NCBI GenBank assembly: GCA_021793515.1 | Contig: JAJYSP010000012.1 | Coordinates: 1 to 64,000, forward strand | Origin: Actinomycetes bacterium | GTDB lineage: Bacteria > Actinomycetota > Acidimicrobiia > Acidimicrobiales > RAAP-2 | DNA: 64,000 bases | Reading direction: 5' to 3' | In this document: positions 598 to 34,468 of the stretch, piece by piece | Layout of the letters: every line of letters starts with the position of its first letter | Numbering within the stretch: position 1 is the stretch's first letter | Made by a program: the position numbers and the translations under genes | Notes under the pieces: model-generated | Told to the model about the DNA's origin: nothing | Database searches by the model: none | Seen by the model: only the letters and a program-made list of their open reading frames with translations

Positions 598-1982
598 GGG
601 TGAGTCATGGCCTCGGGTACCACGGCGGCGTCGAACTCCTCAGCCGACAGGAAGCCGAGGGCGAGGGCGGCCTCGCGCAACGTCGTGCGCTCGTGGTGGG
701 CCTTCTTGGCGACCTTGGCGGCCTTGTCGTAGCCGATGATCGGATTGAGGGCCGTGACCAGCATCAGGCTGTTGCGCAGGTGGTGGTCAATCTGCTCGTA
801 GTCGGGCTCGAGTCCCTCGACGCAGAACTCACGGAACCGGTCACAGGCGTCGGTCAGCAGATCGATCGAGTTGCAGAAGTTGTGGATGATCACGGGCTTG
901 GCGACGTTGAGCTCGAGGTTGCCCCGGGAGTCGGCCATCGCGACTGCGGTGTCGTTCGCGTACACCTGTATCCCGACCATGATCATGGCCTCGGACTGGG
1001 TCGGGTTGACCTTGCCGGGCATGATTGAGCTACCGGGCTCGTTCTCGGGCAGACGTAACTCGCCGAGTCCCGACCGGGGACCCGAGCCGAGCCAACGCAG
1101 GTCGTCGGCCACCTTGATGAGGCTCGCCGCCAGGGTCTTGATGGCGCCGTGCGCGAAGACCAGCGCGTCGTGCGCGGCCAGCGCGGCGAACTTGTTCGGG
1201 GCGGTCACGAACGGCTGGCCAGTCAGCGCGGCGATGGCGGCGGCGACCCGCTCACCGAACTCGGGGTGCGTGTTCAGTCCGGTGCCCACCGCGGTGCCAC
1301 CGGCGGCGAGTTCGTAGAGCCCAGGTAGGACCGCGTTCAGCCGTTCTAGGTCGGCGTCGAGCTGGGCGACGTACCCCGAGAACTCCTGGCCGAGTGTGAG
1401 CGGTACGGCGTCCATCAGGTGGGTCCGACCGATCTTGGTCACCCCTTCGTAGGCGCGCGCCTTCTCGTCGAGCGCGTCGCGCAGGCGAGCGACCGAGGGG
1501 ACGAGCCGACCCGTGATCTCCATGACGGCGGCGATGTGCATCGCCGTGGGGAAGGTGTCATTGGACGACTGGGACATGTTCACGTGGTCGTTGGGGTGCA
1601 CGGGATCCTTCGAGCCGCGCTCGCCGCCGGCCAGCTCGATGGCGCGGTTCGAGATCACTTCGTTGACGTTCATGTTCGTCTGGGTGCCCGACCCGGTCTG
1701 CCAGATGCGCAGTGGGAACTCCCCCGCGAGCGATCCGTCGATGACCTCACCGGCGGCGCGCTCAATGAGCTCGGCGCGCTCGGCGTCGAGTTTGCCCAGG
1801 TCGTGGTTGACCCGCGCCGAGGCGAGCTTCAAGATTCCAAAGGCCCGGATGAGCGCTGGGGGCATCGTCTCGTGGCTGATGGCGAAGTGGTGGAGGCTCC
1901 GCTCGGTCTGGGCACCCCAGTATCGCTCAGCGGGCACCTCAATCGTGCCCATAGTGTCTGATTCGATCCGCACGTTGGTCAT
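594..1982 (-). CDS. fumC: class II fumarate hydratase
   Basis: 462 residues, typical of the tetrameric, iron-independent fumarase that interconverts fumarate and (S)-malate in the TCA cycle. The N-terminus '[21 protein letters not shown]' leads into '[13 protein letters not shown]', '[18 protein letters not shown]', and the superfamily signature '[16 protein letters not shown]' containing the catalytic loop serine. This SS/KVNP context together with '[18 protein letters not shown]' favours fumarase over aspartase. The ATG is preceded by a good ribosome site (GGAGGA). The gene sits 8 bases downstream of nfo and overlaps the pterin dehydratase, suggesting a three-gene transcript. Confidence 0.95.
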
Positions 1983-1990
1983 CGTTCCTC

Positions 1991-2893
1991 CTACTTGGTT
2001 TCCATCGATTTCGCCCCGCCTCGACGATAGAGCGCGACGCCGCGCTCGACGACCGCGCGCGCGGCGACCACGTCCTCACCGCGCGGTCCGTCGCCGTCGC
2101 CCGGCACCTCGAGCAGGAGCGGCAGTTCGCGCACCTTGGGGTGTCCGACGAGTGCGGCGAGTCCCGCCTCGCCGATCTCGCCCTCGCCGATGTTCGCGTG
2201 TCGGTCACGGTTCGAGCCGAAGGCTGTCTTGGAGTCGTTCAGGTGCAGGCAGCGCAACCGCTCAACACCGATGCGCTGCTCGACGTCTCGGATTAGTCGG
2301 CGCGCGGCGCTCGGCGTTGCGTAGTCGACGCCGCTCGCGAAGAGGTGCTGGGTGTCCAGGCAGATCCCGAGTCGCTCGTCGTTGCCGCTGGCTTCGAGGA
2401 GGGCCTCAATCTCCTCAAGACTGCGCCCGACCGTCCCCCCGGCGCCGGCGGCGTTCTCGATCAGGATCGGGCAGCGCGTATCGGTCGCCCCCGCGTCGTC
2501 CATGGCCCGGGCGAACGCGCCGACGACCTGGTCCACGACCTCGTCGAAGCCCGCGCCCTTGTGGCTGCCGACGTGCAAAATGACCCCTGAGGCGCCCATG
2601 GCGCGTCCCACGCGCAAGTTGTGGGTGAGTGCCGCGACGGACTTCTCGTAGAGCTCGGGGTCAGCGGTCGCGAGGTTGATGAGGTACGTCGCGTGACAGA
2701 ACGTATCGGTGATGCTCGGGTGGTCGCGCTGGGCCTCGCGGTACGCCTCGAGGACCGCTGGCGCGTACTGGCTCGGTTTCCACATCCGCGGGCTCTGGAC
2801 AAAGACCTGGATCGAGGTCGCACCGATGGCCACCCCAGCGTCCAGCGACGGGATCAGCGTCCCGCCGCCGCGCACGTGCGCACCGATGTTCAT
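1991..2893 (-). CDS. nfo: endonuclease IV (AP endonuclease)
   Basis: 300 residues from the ATG at 2893, where the typical family start '[13 protein letters not shown]' begins; a longer open frame upstream runs into the divergent gene and is rejected. Motifs of the zinc-dependent TIM-barrel AP endonuclease are in order: '[12 protein letters not shown]', '[11 protein letters not shown]', '[11 protein letters not shown]', '[14 protein letters not shown]', '[15 protein letters not shown]', '[26 protein letters not shown]'. The His, Asp and Glu residues in these blocks supply the three metal sites. The enzyme nicks DNA 5' of abasic sites in base-excision repair. It is divergent from the oxidoreductase at 2940, with a 46-base shared promoter region holding an inverted repeat. 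Confidence 0.93.
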
Positions 2894-2909
2894 AACGACA
2901 AAACTACTA

Positions 2910-2928
2910 GGGTCGGAACAACCGACCC
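2910..2928. promoter_or_regulatory. inverted repeat in the nfo / oxidoreductase divergent promoter
   Basis: Perfect 7-base arms GGGTCGG and CCGACCC around a 5-base loop, in the 46-base gap between two divergent starts. It lies just upstream of the AAAGGAG ribosome site for the gene at 2940. It could be an operator or a small hairpin in the leader; nothing shows which. Confidence 0.35.
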
Positions 2929-2939
2929 AAAGGAGTGCC

Positions 2940-3341
2940 GTGACCGACACCTTCACCGACGCCTCGCGCGCCATCTTCGCCAAGCGGGTCCTCGCCCATG
3001 TCGCGAGCCTCTCACCCGACGGATCCCCCAACGTGACCCCCGTGTGGGTCGAACTCGACGGTGACGACGTGATCATCAACACGTCCCTCGGACGGGCTAA
3101 GGCGCGCAATCTAGCGTCGGACCCCCGCGTGGCGGTGTCACTCACTGACCCGGACAACCCCTACGTCGCGATCGCGCTTCGCGGCACCGTGGTCGGCTTT
3201 ACGACCGACGGCGCCGACGAGGTCATCGACCGGCTCGCCAAGAAGTATCTCGACGTGGACACCTACCCGCATCGCCGCGAGGGTGAGGTCCGCGTCACGG
3301 TGCGCATCCGCCCCGACCGGATCGCCGCCCAGCCGGAGTAG
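2940..3341 (+). CDS. PPOX-class F420/FMN-dependent oxidoreductase (flavin split-barrel)
   Basis: 133 residues from a GTG start preceded by AAAGGAG at the right distance; the longer upstream frame would cross the divergent nfo start. The sequence 'ILAHVASLSPDGSPNVTPVWVELDGDDV'-like opening, 'NTSLGRAKARNLASDPRVAVSLTDPDNPYV' and 'LRGTVVGF' are typical of the pyridoxamine-phosphate-oxidase-like split barrel seen in actinobacterial F420-dependent reductases. Such proteins reduce small organic substrates with F420H2 or use FMN. Which cofactor is used cannot be decided from sequence alone. It is a single-gene unit facing nfo. Confidence 0.8.
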   Translation: MTDTFTDASRAIFAKRVLAHVASLSPDGSPNVTPVWVELDGDDVIINTSLGRAKARNLASDPRVAVSLTDPDNPYVAIALRGTVVGFTTDGADEVIDRLAKKYLDVDTYPHRREGEVRVTVRIRPDRIAAQPE

Positions 3342-27760: not shown

Positions 27761-28390
27761 TTACGAATCCTGCGCGTCGCGATTCAGCATCGCCGACCGG
27801 AAGAGCGCATTCATGGTGAAGTCCCAATCCTCCTGCTCGACGGGTGACGTCGTGATGTCGTCGAGAACCCGCCCGAAGACCACCGCTTGGATCAGCGCGG
27901 CGAGGGACCACGCTGATACGTCCTTACGGACAAAACCCCGGTCTTGTCCCATCGACATCACGTCTCGCAACTCGTTGGTGAGTCGTGACTCAGTGGCGCC
28001 GATCAAGGCGGCGAGTTCCGGTCTCGTGAGCGCCGCGGCCACGATGCGCGCTCGCATCGCCCGGCTTCGCCGACGGTCCTCGCCGGCCGACAGCAGCCCG
28101 ATCAGTGGTTGGATACGGATCAAGAACTCGTCAATGTCGGCGGATTGCTGGCTCACGTTCGACAATTCATCGATGTCACGCTGCACCAGATCACTGAACA
28201 ACTGGTTATACGCCGCGTCGATCACGCCCTCGCGCGAACCAAAGTGATGGTAGACAGAGCCGTAATTGACACCCGTTGCGTCGCAGATTTCCGGTATTCG
28301 GATCAGTGACTCGTCGCCACTCCATAGACGAGAAACGACCTCGTCGATCACCGCCTTCATGACGGGAATCGACCGACTTTGTTTGGCCAC
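27761..28390 (-). CDS. TetR-family transcriptional regulator
   Basis: 209 residues. The N-terminal helix-turn-helix is 'IRIPEICDATGVNYGSVYHH' followed by 'FGSREGVIDAAYNQLF', the normal TetR DNA-binding layout; the C-terminal ligand domain is not specifically recognisable. It is divergent from the disrupted MFS exporter gene at 28539, with about 148 bases between. TetR proteins in this arrangement usually repress the divergent exporter and themselves. The intergenic region contains imperfect repeats (ccggcgt ... acgccgg, 28457-28496) that could be its operator. Confidence 0.88.
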   Translation of the reverse strand: MAKQSRSIPVMKAVIDEVVSRLWSGDESLIRIPEICDATGVNYGSVYHHFGSREGVIDAAYNQLFSDLVQRDIDELSNVSQQSADIDEFLIRIQPLIGLLSAGEDRRRSRAMRARIVAAALTRPELAALIGATESRLTNELRDVMSMGQDRGFVRKDVSAWSLAALIQAVVFGRVLDDITTSPVEQEDWDFTMNALFRSAMLNRDAQDS

Positions 28391-28538
28391 ATTGGAATCC
28401 TACCGCCCACTGTCGCTCGGTGACCTTGTCAATTTCACGCCACGTCCATGGCACACCGGCGTCCATGACCCGGTCGGGTTCATCGGTCACGCCGGGTAGT
28501 GTTCCCGTGAAAACATCGGTCCCCGAGGAGGAGAAGTC

Positions 28539-29683
28539 GTGCCGAAACCGACCCGCCTAGAGCCCGAGATCATTCAGGTGGGCGTGGTGATCGTACTCGG
28601 GGCGATCATGTCGATCCTCGACACCACCATCGTCGCCGTGGCGCTGCACACCCTCAGTCACGATTTCCGAGTGGACGTTTCGACGATTCAGTGGGTCACG
28701 ACCGGGTATCTGCTCGCCCTCGCCGTCGTGATCCCCGTCTCAGGCTGGGCGATCCATCGCATCGGCGCCAAGACCGTGTACATGATCTCGCTCGGCTTCT
28801 TCATCACCGGGTCCGCGATGAGTGGCCTCGCGTGGTCGGCGACCAGCTTGATCCTCTTCCGCGTCCTTCAGGGGCTCGGTGGCGGGATGATCCTGCCTGT
28901 CGGCCAATCGATCATGGCACGCACCGCGGGGCCCCAGCGAATGGGTCAGGTGATGGGGATCATCGGTGTCCCCCAACTGCTCGGTCCGATCCTCGGACCC
29001 GTGATCGGTGGCGTCATCATTTCGAACACTTCGTGGCGTTGGATCTTCTTCGTCAACGTACCGATCGGCCTGGTCGCGCTCGTGCTCGCTCGACGATTCC
29101 TGCCGGCCACGTCGGGCGATCGAGGGCACCGATTCGACCTACTCGGCTTCATGCTCTTGTCGCCCGGTCTCGCATTCATCGTCTACGGCCTCGCCGAAGT
29201 CGGTAGCCGCGGTGGTTTCCATGGTGCCGCGGTGTACGACAGCCTCGTCGTAGGACTCGTCTTGAGTGGACTTTTCGTGTTCCGCTCCCTTCGTGCGCCC
29301 GAGCCCCTCATCGATATGAGGCTCTTTCGCGATCGGACCTTCTCCCTCGCGTCTACGGGGATCTTCCTCGTCGGCGCCACGTTGTACGGGACGATGTTCC
29401 TACTGCCCCTCTACTACCAGATCGTGCGCGGCGACTCGGCCTGGCTCGCGGGACTCATGATGGCTCCCCAAGGCCTGGGCGCGGCGATGTCCATGCGCTT
29501 CGGTGGACTCATGGCCGACCGTCGAGGACCGCGATCGGTGGTGCCCTACGGGGTCGTCGTACTCGCCCTCGGCACGTTCTTCTATACCCAGGTCACTGCG
29601 ACCTCCAACTACTGGCTACTCGGGATCGCGCTGTTCATCCGGGGTCTCGGGATGGGCGCGACGATGATGCCTACGTTCGCTGC
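28539..29683 (+). pseudogene. DHA2-family MFS exporter, 5' part (split by IS256 element)
   Basis: First 381 complete codons of an EmrB/QacA-type drug:H+ antiporter, from a GTG with GAGGAGGAG upstream. Motifs: 'LGAIMSILDTTIVAVALHTL' (TM1, the D1 motif typical of 14-TM DHA2 proteins), 'QWVTTGYLLALAVVIPVSGW', 'FRVLQGLGGGMILPVGQSIM', 'GPILGPVIGGVIISNTSWRW', 'IFFVNVPIGLVALVLARRFL'. The frame runs 8 codons into the insertion sequence and stops at 29708. The sequence up to 29683 joins in frame to 31158 when the IS and one copy of its 8-base duplication are removed, giving 499 residues. As it stands the product would lack the last three or so helices. Probable target of the divergent TetR regulator. 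Confidence 0.9.
29676..29683. repeat. target-site duplication, left copy (IS256-family element)
   Basis: TTCGCTGC directly before the IS left end; the identical octamer follows the right end at 31150-31157. Eight bases is the size produced by IS256-family transposases. Confidence 0.9.
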
Positions 29684-29711
29684 GGTTAAGTCCCAACGAG
29701 TGGTGTAAGAG
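29684..29711. repeat. IS256-family left terminal inverted repeat
   Basis: Matches the reverse complement of 31122-31149 at 25 of 28 positions by direct comparison. Shared core GTCCCAACGAGTGGTGTA. Confidence 0.85.
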
Positions 29712-29758
29712 TTTCGTGCGCCTCGTCGTTCGCCACGCCAACCTCGTCGTCGAGAACT

Positions 29759-31030
29759 CTAGGCCGCGGTGATATCGATGACAACCTCCTCGCGTGCGGC
29801 AATGATGGCCGGCCTCGGATCTTCGAGCGACGGTTCGGTTATTGCGGGCTGACTGAGTGATTCGATGCGCAGGTAGCGCCTCGAGACCGCCCACTCGTCG
29901 TTCTGCTCGGCGAGCAGAGCACCCACGAGACGGATGACCGCCTGGCGGTTGGGGAAGATCCCGACCACGTCGGTGCGTCGGCGGACCTCCTTGTTGAGCC
30001 GCTCCTGGGGATTGTTGGATCTGATCTTCTTCCAGTGTTCGAACGGGAAGGCGGTGAAGGCCAAGATGTCGTCGGCCGCGTCGAGCAGGTAGGTCGCCTG
30101 GTCGCAGAACCCCGCCTCGGTGAGTCGACTCGTGACCTCGGCCAGCTTGGCCCAGGTGCTGTCGCGGTCGGGCTGATCGAAGATCGAGCGCACCAACGTG
30201 GCGATCATCGGCCAGCTGGCCTTGGTGCACCGGGTCGCTAAGTTCGCCATGAAGTGGGTTCGACAGCGTTGCCAACTCGCCCCAGAGAGCACCTGGGCGA
30301 TGGCGGCCTTGATCCCGCCGTGCGCGTCAGAGATCACGAGTTCGACCCCGCTGAGTCCCCGGGCGACGAGCGAGCGCAGGAAGGCCGTCCAGGCGGCGGT
30401 GTCCTCGGTGGTGGTGATATCAAAGCCGATGATCTCGCGCGTCCCTTCGTTGTTGACCGCGGTCGCGATCACCGCGGCGACGTTCACGACCCGGCCGCCC
30501 TCGCGCACCCGCTGGGTCAGCGCGTCGATCCACAGGTAGCGGTAGGGACCACGGTCGAGGGGTCGTTCCCTGAACTGGGTAACGACGGCGTCGAGTTCTG
30601 CGGCCAGACGCGAGACCTCGGACTTACTCATGCCGTCGATGCCCATGGCCCTGACGAGGTCGTCGACGCGTCGCGTGGAGACCCCCTCGACGTAGGCCTG
30701 GCAGATCACTGCCACCAACGCCTGCTCGGCGCGTCGGCGCGGGTTCAAGAGCACCTCGGGGTTGTAGACCCCTCGGCGCAGCTTGGGCACGTTGAGCTCG
30801 ATCGTGCCGACCCGCGTGTCCCAGGGTCGGGTGCGGTAGCCGTTGCGCGAGTTCTCACGCTCTGCGGTGCGCTCGTTATAGGCGGCGTTGCACTGCATCG
30901 ACGCCTGGGCACTCATGACGGCATCGGCGAAGGCCCCGAGCATGGACCGCACCATGTCGGTGTCGCCGTCGGCACCCTCCAGGTACTTGCTAAGCCAGGC
31001 GCCAGCGTCGATAGTGGTTGGGACGTTCAT
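29759..31030 (-). CDS. IS256-family (mutator-type) transposase
   Basis: 423 residues from the ATG at 31030, which has GAGGAG at the right distance; a longer frame begins 36 bases upstream. The mutator-type DDE catalytic acids lie in 'YLWIDALTQRV', 'VELVISDAHGGIKAAIAQVL' and 'NNPQERLNKEVRRRTDVVGI'. The conserved 'WQRCRTHFMANL' (the C/H block after the second Asp) is present, and the N-terminal region 'ENSRNGYRTRPWDTRVGTIE' with 'LNVPKLRRGVY' is standard. Full length with no frameshift, so probably functional. It transposes with a short target duplication, as seen at this site. Confidence 0.95.
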   Translation of the reverse strand: MNVPTTIDAGAWLSKYLEGADGDTDMVRSMLGAFADAVMSAQASMQCNAAYNERTAERENSRNGYRTRPWDTRVGTIELNVPKLRRGVYNPEVLLNPRRRAEQALVAVICQAYVEGVSTRRVDDLVRAMGIDGMSKSEVSRLAAELDAVVTQFRERPLDRGPYRYLWIDALTQRVREGGRVVNVAAVIATAVNNEGTREIIGFDITTTEDTAAWTAFLRSLVARGLSGVELVISDAHGGIKAAIAQVLSGASWQRCRTHFMANLATRCTKASWPMIATLVRSIFDQPDRDSTWAKLAEVTSRLTEAGFCDQATYLLDAADDILAFTAFPFEHWKKIRSNNPQERLNKEVRRRTDVVGIFPNRQAVIRLVGALLAEQNDEWAVSRRYLRIESLSQPAITEPSLEDPRPAIIAAREEVVIDITAA

Positions 31031-31121
31031 CGTGTCTCTCCTCAAGTTGTTGTGTCGTAACTGCATCTTGAGATTGACGCGATGAACGTCGTTTTTGGTG
31101 GACCCTGATTCAGCTCACTGG

Positions 31122-31149
31122 CTCGTACACCACTCGTTGGGACTCAACT
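31122..31149. repeat. IS256-family right terminal inverted repeat
   Basis: Reverse complement matches the left repeat at 25 of 28 positions. The element ends at 31149, immediately before the second duplication copy. Confidence 0.85.
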
Positions 31150-31157
31150 TTCGCTGC
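31150..31157. repeat. target-site duplication, right copy
   Basis: TTCGCTGC, identical to 29676-29683. Keeping only one copy restores the MFS reading frame. Confidence 0.9.
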
Positions 31158-31512
31158 CTCGTACTACAACCTCACTCACGACGACGTGCCCAAGGCGACG
31201 TCCGCGACGAATATCCTGCGCCAAGTCGGTGGCTCACTCGGTGTCGCGGTTTTCGCCGTGGTGCTCCAGACCCAGACAACCCACCGGCTCCCAGCGGTCG
31301 GCCTGGCACTGCAGGCCGGTAAGATTCATGCGAACATCAGTCAACTCGAAGCGGTGGCGGGTGCGTTCGCTCATTCATTCTGGTGGTCGTTCGCCGTCTC
31401 GCTGTTGGCGTTGATTCCGGCCGTGTTCTTGCCGAATCGTGGTCTCGCGGCTCAACGATCGGCGGTGCCAGCATTCGACTCACAACCAGAAAGTTCGTCT
31501 CGACATGACTAA
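31158..31512 (+). pseudogene. DHA2-family MFS exporter, 3' part (split by IS256 element)
   Basis: Last 118 codons of the exporter begun at 28539. After the junction the frame reads 'SYYNLTHDDVPKATSATNIL' then 'RQVGGSLGVAVFAVVLQTQ', which is the normal DHA2 sequence around TM11-TM13, and ends with the last helix 'WWSFAVSLLALIPAVFLPNR'. It has no convincing start of its own; an ATG/GTG-type restart near 31186 would give only a fragment. Its stop overlaps the FMN-reductase start by 8 bases, so the two were one transcript before the insertion. Confidence 0.9.
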
Positions 31513-32074
31513 GCCAGTTCTCGAAGTGATTATCGGGTCAACTCGACCCGGGAGGGCTGGCGCGCCAATCGCCAGGTGGTTCTACGACCTCGCCGTCGCC
31601 GACGGGCGATTCGAGGTGGAACTCGTCGATCTCGCCGAAGTAAACCTGCCGATCTTCAATGAACCGAACCATCCGAATCAGGGCAAGTACGAGTTCGAAC
31701 ACACCAAACGGTGGTCGGCCACCGTGTCGCGGGGCGACGCCTTTGTCTTTGTCGTACCCGAGTACAACCACAGCTTCAACGCCGCGACGAAGAACGCGAT
31801 CGACTACCTGCACAATGAGTGGCGCTACAAGCCCGCCGGCATCGTCAGCTATGGCGGCGCGATCATGGGGACGCGATCGGCCCAGCACCTCAAGCCAGTC
31901 TTCAGTGCCCTCAAACTGGTTCACGCCGGCGACGTCTCGATTCCCTTGGTGACCACGCCCGTGGTTGACGGTGTCTTCGTCGGCAACGACATCTTGATCA
32001 ACTCAGCGAAGAGTCTCTTGAACGAACTCGACTTCATCACACCGGGGCTAATGCAACTGCGCGCCGGTCGGTAG
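31505..32074 (+). CDS. NADPH-dependent FMN reductase family protein
   Basis: 189 residues from the ATG at 31505. Flavodoxin-like fold: the FMN phosphate loop 'EVIIGSTRPGRAGAPIARWF', then 'VFVVPEYNHSFNAATKNAID' (the family's PEYNHS block) and 'YGGAIMGTRSAQHLKPVFSA'. Members reduce FMN, quinones, azo dyes or nitro compounds with NAD(P)H. It overlaps the end of the broken exporter by 8 bases, so exporter and reductase likely formed a detoxification unit under the TetR regulator. The IS insertion may now reduce its expression. Confidence 0.88.
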   Translation: MTKPVLEVIIGSTRPGRAGAPIARWFYDLAVADGRFEVELVDLAEVNLPIFNEPNHPNQGKYEFEHTKRWSATVSRGDAFVFVVPEYNHSFNAATKNAIDYLHNEWRYKPAGIVSYGGAIMGTRSAQHLKPVFSALKLVHAGDVSIPLVTTPVVDGVFVGNDILINSAKSLLNELDFITPGLMQLRAGR

Positions 32075-32279: not shown

Positions 32280-32322
32280 GTAGGGCCGGTGGGGATCGAA
32301 CCCACGACCGAGGGATTATGAG
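32280..32322 (-). repeat. att-like repeat: 3' fragment of a CAT-anticodon tRNA gene
   Basis: 43 bases identical to 34395-34437, which is the 3' part of the intact tRNA gene (anticodon loop to discriminator base). Past 32322 the sequence diverges completely from tRNA. This is the displaced tRNA 3' end left when an element integrates into a tRNA gene by site-specific recombination; the other boundary is the intact tRNA. Confidence 0.85.
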
Positions 32323-32453: not shown

Positions 32454-33020
32454 TCACTTGCGCGATGAATTGTCCAGTCGGTCGAGAACCGTGGCGGAAA
32501 GCCCCGCGAAAGTTGCGTTCGATTGCGCAACGACATTTGAAATGAATTCGTCGTTCAATCGGAGCAGTCCAAGAAGAAGATGACCTGGGCACATGTATTG
32601 GTCATGAAGCTCAAGGGCGACGCGTAATGAGAGCTCAAGTGATCGCTTTGCCTCCGCCGTAAAGGGAGGCCGGTGAGTCTTTGCCTCATGAACTCTCCGA
32701 TCTGAAGCCGACTCGAGCGAACCAGGTCCAAAAGTCTCTTCAACTGCTGTCCGTACGCCTGTGTAGTCGATGCCGATAGCGCGCAAAGCTTCGGCGTCAA
32801 TGTCCGTAACGGTGACCTCACGTTTGCGCGGCAACATGCGACGAATCGACTCTGCCGTGATTCCGGCGTCGTTCAGTGGCTCACCAGCGGTGCTCTCCCG
32901 CCCTGCGGCACAGCCGAGCAAGATGTGGCCAGCACCGATATAGCCAGTGCCAAGTTCAAGCGCCGCGTCCTGCGCCTCAACGAGAACAGCTTTCGCCTCC
33001 TGGGTAAATCGTTCGAACAT
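32454..33020 (-). CDS. stand-alone double Clp-N domain protein
   Basis: 188 residues from the ATG at 33020, with GGAGG upstream. Two Clp amino-terminal repeats and nothing else: repeat 1 about residues 1-70 ('MFERFTQEAKAVLVEAQDAA', 'LGTGYIGAGHILLGC') and repeat 2 about 110-185 ('FTAEAKRSLELSLRVALELH', 'CPGHLLLGLL'). In ClpA/ClpC this domain binds substrates and adaptors; here no AAA+ module follows, so it may act as an adaptor, decoy or sensor. It begins one base after the stop of the small HTH gene. It lies in the tRNA-bounded segment, with visibly more AT-rich codon use than its chromosomal neighbours. Confidence 0.85.
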   Translation of the reverse strand: MFERFTQEAKAVLVEAQDAALELGTGYIGAGHILLGCAAGRESTAGEPLNDAGITAESIRRMLPRKREVTVTDIDAEALRAIGIDYTGVRTAVEETFGPGSLESASDRRVHEAKTHRPPFTAEAKRSLELSLRVALELHDQYMCPGHLLLGLLRLNDEFISNVVAQSNATFAGLSATVLDRLDNSSRK

Positions 33021-33021
33021 G

Positions 33022-33255
33022 TCAAATACCTCCGTCTCGCGACGTGGAACGTCCGCCGCCATGCTTTTGGTGAACCGCCTGCTTGGATACGCCTAATTCG
33101 CCGGCGATCTGAGCCCAAGACCAACCAAGGTCGCGTGCTCGATCCACTTGGAGTGACTCAAGTTGCTCAGCAAGTCGGCGAAGCGATGCGACTGCTCGCA
33201 AACCGACCTTGGGATCAACACTTGCGGCGCTGCTCACTTCATCCATCGAACCCAT
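33022..33255 (-). CDS. small helix-turn-helix protein partnered with the Clp-N gene
   Basis: 77 residues. 'LRRLAEQLESLQVDRARDLG' is a helical segment, followed by 'WSWAQIAGELGVSKQAVHQK', a clear helix-turn-helix. A second ATG 9 bases in ('MDEVSSAASV') could be the real start. Small HTH proteins of this kind commonly precede stand-alone Clp-N genes in actinobacteria, so a two-gene regulatory unit is likely. The stop is separated from the Clp-N ATG by one base. Confidence 0.75.
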   Translation of the reverse strand: MGSMDEVSSAASVDPKVGLRAVASLRRLAEQLESLQVDRARDLGWSWAQIAGELGVSKQAVHQKHGGGRSTSRDGGI

Positions 33256-33342
33256 AGCGTCAATCTATCTTGACTCCTCAGAATCGTCAAGTCCTATTGA
33301 CTCAAAGCGGATTTCTGTAGTCTTATCAGGACTAATACCAAT

Positions 33343-33359
33343 GCCGGTGGGGATCGAAC
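33343..33359 (-). repeat. internal 17-base copy of the tRNA 3' end
   Basis: GCCGGTGGGGATCGAAC is identical to 34399-34415 and 32284-32300, i.e. the T-arm/acceptor part of the tRNA. Flanking bases differ and no T stem can form, so this is not a tRNA. It lies between the Clp-N pair and the toxin-antitoxin pair, splitting the segment into two units. Confidence 0.7.
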
Positions 33360-33402
33360 GGGACTGCAGACGGCAGTTTGAATCCCGTTAAGAAATGAGT
33401 GC

Positions 33403-33426
33403 GTACCAGTGGTACATCTGGTACCA
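33403..33426. promoter_or_regulatory. palindromic operator-like sequence upstream of the antitoxin gene
   Basis: A perfect palindrome GTACCA-G-TGGTAC (33403-33415) is followed by a second palindromic octamer TGGTACCA (33419-33426), both within 32 bases of the antitoxin ATG. Repeated palindromes here are typical of autoregulated toxin-antitoxin operons, where the antitoxin alone or in complex binds. No Shine-Dalgarno sequence is visible before the ATG, so the message may be leaderless or nearly so. Confidence 0.55.
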
Positions 33427-33434
33427 TCTATCCC

Positions 33435-33872
33435 ATGGAACGTAGTCGAACTTCTCAGTACTCAATGGGCTTGCGCTACAAGTCACGCTCTGCGAGAGAC
33501 AATTTCAGTGACCTTCTCACGGCGGCGGAGGCGGGCATGCCACCGGTGATCACGCGTGATCGTCCCGTGGCAGCAATCGATGCACGTGCGCTTGAAGAGT
33601 TGCTCGCGATTCGAGCACCCTTTGACGTCCTCTCTTCGGTTACTAATGACCAGGTTGCGTTGTGGCTTTCGGACGGCTCTGCTTATGCGGTCGGCCCTGA
33701 CCTCGCAACCGCAACGGATGGCTTTCTTGACGCACTGGTTGACTACGCACAAAGTTGGTTTGATGACCTGCGTGAGGCTCCAAATCACGCGCAGAACCGT
33801 TGGCTCGCAATGCGCATTGCGCTGCACGCCGGTGACCGGGAAGAACTTGAGCACGCAGTCTTTGGCGACTGA
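33435..33872 (+). CDS. Phd/YefM-type antitoxin (prevent-host-death family)
   Basis: 145 residues from the ATG at 33435; an ATG at 33468 ('MGLRYKSRSARDNFSDLLTA') would give the more compact Phd-type N-terminus, and a GTG at 33399 lies inside the operator-like palindrome. 'SARDNFSDLLTAAEAGMPPV' and 'VITRDRPVAAIDARALEELL' match the Phd DNA-binding fold. The remaining ~95 residues are an acidic, helical extension beyond the usual Phd length, probably the toxin-neutralising part. Its TGA overlaps the next ATG (TGATG). Confidence 0.8.
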   Translation: MERSRTSQYSMGLRYKSRSARDNFSDLLTAAEAGMPPVITRDRPVAAIDARALEELLAIRAPFDVLSSVTNDQVALWLSDGSAYAVGPDLATATDGFLDALVDYAQSWFDDLREAPNHAQNRWLAMRIALHAGDREELEHAVFGD

Positions 33873-34303
33873 TGCCTCGACCACTCGCGCACGCCGATCA
33901 CAAGAAGTTCGTCGAAACCGAAGGCTGGAAGAAGCAAGGAACTACAAGAGGTGCTCGAAAAACAGGAAACCACTTTCGCTATACCCTCCGGCTGAGTACC
34001 GGAGATATTCTCTACACGAGAGTTTCACACGGTTCCGGATCGATTAAGGACCATTCTCTCGTTGCTTTAATTCTGAGAGAACAACTGCGCGTTTCTGAAG
34101 AAGACTTTTATCGCTGCGTCAATGACGGAACCCTACCTCCGCGTCCGGCGCCCGAAAGCCCGCCGGTGCCTTCGGAAGGTCTCGACGCGAAACTTGTTCG
34201 CAGTCTCATTAACAAGGTCGGCCTCTCTCAAATTGAAGTCGCCAAGCTGAGCAAAGCAGACGCGGTTGAGAGGTGGCGTCAGTATCTGACTGATCACCCC
34301 TAA
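33872..34303 (+). CDS. putative toxin (HicA-like / cytotoxic translational repressor family)
   Basis: 143 residues. The N-terminal ~80 residues resemble the small dsRBD-like RNA-binding toxin fold of HicA: 'HKKFVETEGWKKQGTTRGAR', 'GNHFRYTLRLSTGDILYTRV', and 'SLVALILREQLRVSEEDFYR'. A proline-rich linker leads to a second helical part ('LVRSLINKVGLSQIEVAKLS') of unknown role. Paired with the Phd-like gene by a 1-base overlap, the classic toxin-antitoxin arrangement with the antitoxin first. The HicA resemblance is by pattern only; a RelE-like fold is the alternative. Codon use is less GC-rich than in flanking genes. Confidence 0.65.
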   Translation: MPRPLAHADHKKFVETEGWKKQGTTRGARKTGNHFRYTLRLSTGDILYTRVSHGSGSIKDHSLVALILREQLRVSEEDFYRCVNDGTLPPRPAPESPPVPSEGLDAKLVRSLINKVGLSQIEVAKLSKADAVERWRQYLTDHP

Positions 34304-34394: not shown

Positions 34395-34437
34395 GTAGGG
34401 CCGGTGGGGATCGAACCCACGACCGAGGGATTATGAG
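34395..34437 (-). repeat. att-like repeat within the intact tRNA gene
   Basis: The 43-base partner of 32280-32322. It covers tRNA nucleotides 32 to 73 plus one base, so integration here would keep the tRNA functional. Confidence 0.85.
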
Positions 34438-34468
34438 TCCCCTGCTCTAACCACTGAGCTACGGCCCT
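34396..34468 (-). tRNA. tRNA with CAT anticodon (Ile2 or elongator Met)
   Basis: 73 bases, all arms paired: acceptor AGGGCCG/CGGCCCT, D arm GCTC/GAGC, anticodon stem GGGGA/TCCCT with loop CTCATAA, T stem GTGGG/CCCAC, discriminator A; CCA is not encoded. The 'AGCAGGGGACTCATAATCCC' region resembles E. coli tRNA-Ile2 (lysidine-modified CAT) more than elongator tRNA-Met; it is not the initiator because the first pair is A-T and the anticodon stem lacks three G-C pairs of initiator type. Its 3' 43 bases are duplicated at 32280-32322, marking it as an integration site. Confidence 0.9.

Follow-up and report, generated by a model that had tools for sequence, protein, structure and literature searches.

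Introduction

Exporters of the DHA2 family have 14 membrane helices. The EmrB-type exporter described here belongs to the same family as the structures labelled EmrB (8zar), EfpA (8ufe), and "Antiseptic resistance protein" (7y58); unlike these, the copy in our window (the whole stretch of DNA analyzed, 64,000 nucleotides) is interrupted at codon 382. The interrupting DNA belongs to the IS256 family, whose member ISCth4 has catalytic residues D175, D241, and E348 and a CxxH motif formed by C262 and H265, according to PMC7780238, which also reports copy-out/paste-in transposition via a circle for this family. We conclude with high confidence that an IS256-family element transposed recently into the DHA2 exporter gene at this codon, splitting the gene and duplicating 8 bp of the target.

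Results

The coordinates of the element, the exporter fragments, and the adjacent genes are collected in Table 1.

Table 1. Features of the interrupted exporter locus (positions in the window)
Feature	Position	Strand	Size	Remark
TetR-family regulator	27761-28390	-	209 aa	divergent from the exporter
Left exporter fragment	28539-29708	+	389 aa	
Left target duplication copy	29676-29683	not assigned	8 bp	TTCGCTGC
IS256-family insertion sequence	29684-31149		1466 bp	transposase on the minus strand
Inverted repeat, low-coordinate end	29685-29711		27 nt	
Transposase	29759-31030	-	423 aa from likely start	GAGGAG before the likely start
Inverted repeat, high-coordinate end	31122-31148		27 nt	
Right target duplication copy	31150-31157	not assigned	8 bp	TTCGCTGC
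Right exporter fragment	31159-31512	+	117 codons plus stop	
NADPH-dependent FMN reductase	31505-32074	+	189 aa	ATG overlaps the exporter end

The insertion lies in codon 382 of 499. The left fragment comprises 381 codons of the exporter, a further codon that is part exporter and part element, and seven element-derived codons followed by a stop; it alone scores 345.3 bits against TIGR00711 (cut-off, 230.2; profile positions 3 to 371 of 485), which upholds the DHA2 exporter call of the initial annotation. The right fragment matches the same profile weakly (positions 384 to 413; E = 0.00063) and is 51 to 90% identical in amino acid sequence to the orthologs at 13 of 13 loci. The closest ortholog, from the same-genus genome G002 (93% amino acid identity on the left and 90% on the right), is uninterrupted and scores 378.2 bits (cut-off, 230.2; positions 3 to 414 of 485), and the exporter matches an EmrB structure with E = 1.6e-46. 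Joining 1145 bases (28539-29683) to 355 bases (31158-31512) gives 1500 bases, or 500 codons including the stop, and a protein of 499 residues. The arithmetic of the joined frame proposed earlier thus holds, and its continuity is taken from the 13 natural orthologs. In a simple hydropathy scan the G002 ortholog has 13 hydrophobic peaks; the insertion falls after peak 11, and the right fragment contains two. The exporter frame of the window is three codons longer than that of G002 (31500-31512), and in G002 the exporter stop precedes the overlapping reductase start.

Do relatives carry the empty site? The left fragment was searched in 61 genomes, comprising our own and 60 relatives (36 from the same genus and 24 from the same order). 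Nine of the 36 same-genus relatives have a match at 71 to 94% identity, and the best match in the same order reaches 40%. The junction was examined at 13 loci, namely, all nine from the same genus and the best 4 of 80 from a named genome collection (67 to 76% identity), which belong to the Acidimicrobiaceae MAGs bog_769, palsa_658, and VK1_bin-0760 and to an uncultured actinobacterium; the same-genus and named-MAG sets may share species, and the remaining 76 loci of the collection (≤55% identity) lie outside the comparison. At every one of the 13 loci the left and right matches follow each other in the same frame, separated by a single alanine codon, which is the empty site; the open frames measure 498 to 534 codons from stop to stop. 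Hence, the uninterrupted gene for which the initial annotation suggested looking in relatives was found, and no split form occurs among these orthologous loci. Our own genome contains 14 further exporter matches, of which the best-scoring has 36% identity; therefore, no close paralog was found as a stand-in.

The element has the following features of an IS256-family member: a family-level profile score, a DDE triad with a C/DxxH motif, terminal inverted repeats, and an 8-bp target duplication. Its longest transposase open reading frame begins at 31066 and encodes 435 residues, with scores of 326.5 bits against NF033543 (IS256 family; curated cut-off, 150), which bears out the earlier family assignment, and 409.7 bits against PF00872 (cut-off, 21). 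The transposase also matches the ISCth4 structure 6xg8 (E = 3.8e-30); in the alignment, D169, D235, and E343 of the 423-residue form correspond to the DDE residues and C256 and H259 to the CxxH motif, with the chain numbering of 6xg8 offset by 3 relative to the residue numbers of PMC7780238, as deduced from the same alignment. The inverted repeats, described previously as intact, are present at both ends and good but imperfect, matching at 25 of 27 positions (93%). The target duplication is perfect, as had been stated, with both 8-bp copies identical when read at the two element ends; two given 8-mers are identical by chance with a probability of about 4^-8 = 1.5e-5. Duplications of 8 bp also flank both other two-ended copies, CGTCGAAG on contig C34 of our own assembly and GAACGCGC in G005. 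Among the eight copies examined, including that of the window, a duplication could be tested in three and was present in all three, the other five having one usable end each owing to a contig end or truncation.

Our assembly consists of 43 contigs and, as with the named genomes closest to it, its origin is probably metagenomic. The organism is probably an uncultured environmental actinobacterium of the Acidimicrobiia, given that the most similar named orthologs come from Acidimicrobiaceae MAGs. A search for identical copies elsewhere, proposed in the initial annotation, turned up none in this assembly, nor any near-identical donor, although copies that were collapsed or left out of the assembly would escape such a search. 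Besides the window copy, a single near-complete copy was found in our own genome, on C34; it is 94 to 95% identical at the nucleotide level and is split by a 728-bp piece carrying part of an IS30-type transposase. On C36 there is a third piece, about 210 bp long and with 85% identity. At the C34 locus (L037, positions 989-3176), the IS30-family piece is without complete ends and about 5 bp are missing at the join, so that this copy could be either the remnant of a nested insertion or a chimera created during assembly. The transposase has matches at E ≤ 1e-30 in 16 of the 61 genomes. Full-length matches (91 to 92% amino acid identity) occur in the same-genus genomes G005, G025 (with one internal stop), and G035, and G002 and G026 have shorter pieces (91 to 93%) where contigs end. 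In plasmids, 4840 of 72,556 records match the transposase, the best-ranked with 57% amino acid identity, and 10 of the 4840 have a place at 60 to 80% identity. Transposase dS is 0.39 to 0.44 when the window is compared with G005 or G025, below the dS of the left exporter part for the same genomes (1.0 to 1.1), which suggests that the element spread horizontally within the genus; differences in codon usage or constraint could contribute to this gap.

The window and G002 share the gene order second MFS gene, divergent TetR gene, exporter gene, and FMN reductase gene, with amino acid identities of 95% (for a second MFS gene truncated where the compared stretch ends), 89%, 93/90%, and 88%, respectively. 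The TetR link claimed for the exporter is thus confirmed as adjacency to a divergent regulator gene (PF00440, 28.1 bits; cut-off, 24). A TetR gene adjoins the exporter in at least 7 of the 13 orthologous loci and an FMN reductase gene follows it in at least 5 of 13, both counts being lower bounds because contig ends cut some loci short. In two of the latter loci (L029 and L030) the reductase match is spread over two frames. The reductase scores 111.6 bits against PF03358 (cut-off, 24), measured on the longer open reading frame 31439-32074, and its start lies within the exporter's end, upstream of the stop codon at 31510-31512. Presumably, exporter and reductase were cotranscribed in the ancestor, in a putative TetR-controlled detoxification pair that would have combined export with flavin-dependent reduction, e.g., of quinones.

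How recent is the insertion? Compared with G002, exporter dN/dS is 0.056 on the left and 0.065 on the right, in line with the neighbors (TetR, 0.062; FMN reductase, 0.075; second MFS gene, 0.036). Both fragments still resemble a gene under purifying selection. Because neither contains a stop or frameshift and dN/dS is about 0.06, the insertion appears young compared with the divergence from G002. The earlier claim of a recent insertion is therefore supported on the scale of species divergence, judged from the selection pattern in the fragments; exporter dS to G002 is already 0.70 (left) and 0.75 (right), which dates the event only loosely. In a test for relaxed constraint, changes were polarized with up to five outgroups, and 3 of 26 uncorrected Fisher tests fell below 0.05, all with outgroup L032. 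These concern the right fragment (13 synonymous and 6 nonsynonymous changes on the window branch versus 16 and 0 on the G002 branch; P = 0.022), the right fragment plus the reductase (40 and 17 versus 42 and 5; P = 0.028), and left versus downstream on the G002 branch only (P = 0.044). With the other four outgroups the right fragment shows no excess of amino acid changes on the window branch (P = 0.21 to 1.0). We do not adopt relaxed selection below the insertion, the nominal signal being dependent on one outgroup; it is at most a hint of such relaxation, by which the insertion may not be brand-new.

Pattern searches of 28380-31560 gave two sigma-70-like matches (mean in shuffles, 0.4), both within the element near its low-coordinate end (29756-29806), one per strand, and none at the element end facing the reductase gene, as well as five terminator-like matches (mean in shuffles, 1.9; standard deviation, 1.6); pattern matches of this kind do not demonstrate function, and no conclusion rests on them. 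One terminator-like match lies on the plus strand within the element (31075-31091) and, if real, would add to polarity.

Downstream of the reductase gene, a perfect 43-bp direct repeat occurs at 32280-32322 and 34395-34437, 2115 bp apart. The second copy forms the 3' end of a tRNA-Met gene (34395-34468), the first is detached, and a third copy of 17 nt is located near midway at 33343-33359 (spacings of 1058 and 1057). The arrangement looks as if one or two small segments had integrated here, with the repeats as their attachment sites. In the region between the repeats (32454-34303), one open reading frame encodes a protein with a Clp_N domain (PF02861), another a PHD-like antitoxin (PF12910), and a third, which overlaps the end of the antitoxin gene, a product of 143 residues; scanning of these three open reading frames gave no integrase family match, and the 143-residue product matches no Pfam or NCBIfam family at E 0.001. 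The antitoxin and the 143-residue product could form a toxin-antitoxin pair.

Discussion

The exporter product would now stop after 11 of 13 hydrophobic peaks plus seven element-encoded residues, and this truncation most likely abolished exporter function. Since the reductase start lies inside the exporter's end, a polar loss of the FMN reductase is also plausible, the cut upstream of the overlapping gene having probably lowered its expression. Could the truncated left fragment, or re-initiation in the right fragment, still yield a transporter, whether functional or altered? The left fragment has an open frame and retains 11 hydrophobic peaks, and an open reading frame of 108 residues starts inside the right fragment. 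However, with 2 of the 13 ortholog peaks in the right fragment the C-terminal half would be incomplete, and the 13 orthologous loci offer no example of a split form; we consider a working product improbable. We give still less credence to the idea that the insertion is a selected, reversible switch, in which selection in this population favors the absence of the exporter together with a polar reduction of reductase expression, and excision restores the gene.

An assembly artefact, in which the IS repeat caused two unrelated contig ends to be mis-joined, is conceivable in principle, because related copies lie at contig ends in G002, G025, G026, and G035, where assemblers break. Yet the two flanks are parts of a single gene, unbroken in all 13 orthologous loci examined, G002 has matching neighbors to the left and right of it, and the element ends carry an exact duplication of 8 bp. 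Such features are unexpected from a mis-join, which makes this explanation next to negligible. It is also highly doubtful that the insertion is old and the gene a long-standing pseudogene. Such an age would agree with the downstream excess of amino acid changes seen with L032, but the excess appears with one of five outgroups for the right fragment and one of four for the right fragment plus reductase, uncorrected over 26 tests, and neither fragment has acquired an inactivating change at a dN/dS of about 0.06. A recent transposition into an intact exporter gene hence is our favored explanation by far. Overall, what the initial annotation observed is confirmed and most of its interpretation holds, with TetR control, a drug substrate, and altered tolerance as its hypothetical part.

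The locus exemplifies the recent loss of a gene to an insertion and is otherwise ordinary. It documents a low-copy IS256-type element common to species of an uncultured actinobacterial genus, and among the titles listed in a literature search none names it, which does not imply its absence from print. The element is a member of a very well-known kind of insertion sequence. Judged by the description of the family (PMC7780238), it resembles ISCth4 in size (1466 versus 1503 bp) and has, like other IS256 elements, a single transposase carrying the DDE triad and the CxxH motif, terminal repeats that are imperfect and about 30 bp long, and an 8-bp target duplication. Its repeats carry TGTAAG and TGTACG, which resemble the family motif TGTAAA. 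Unlike those of the IS256 family, the three target duplications are not A/T-rich, with 5, 5, and 6 of 8 positions being G or C.
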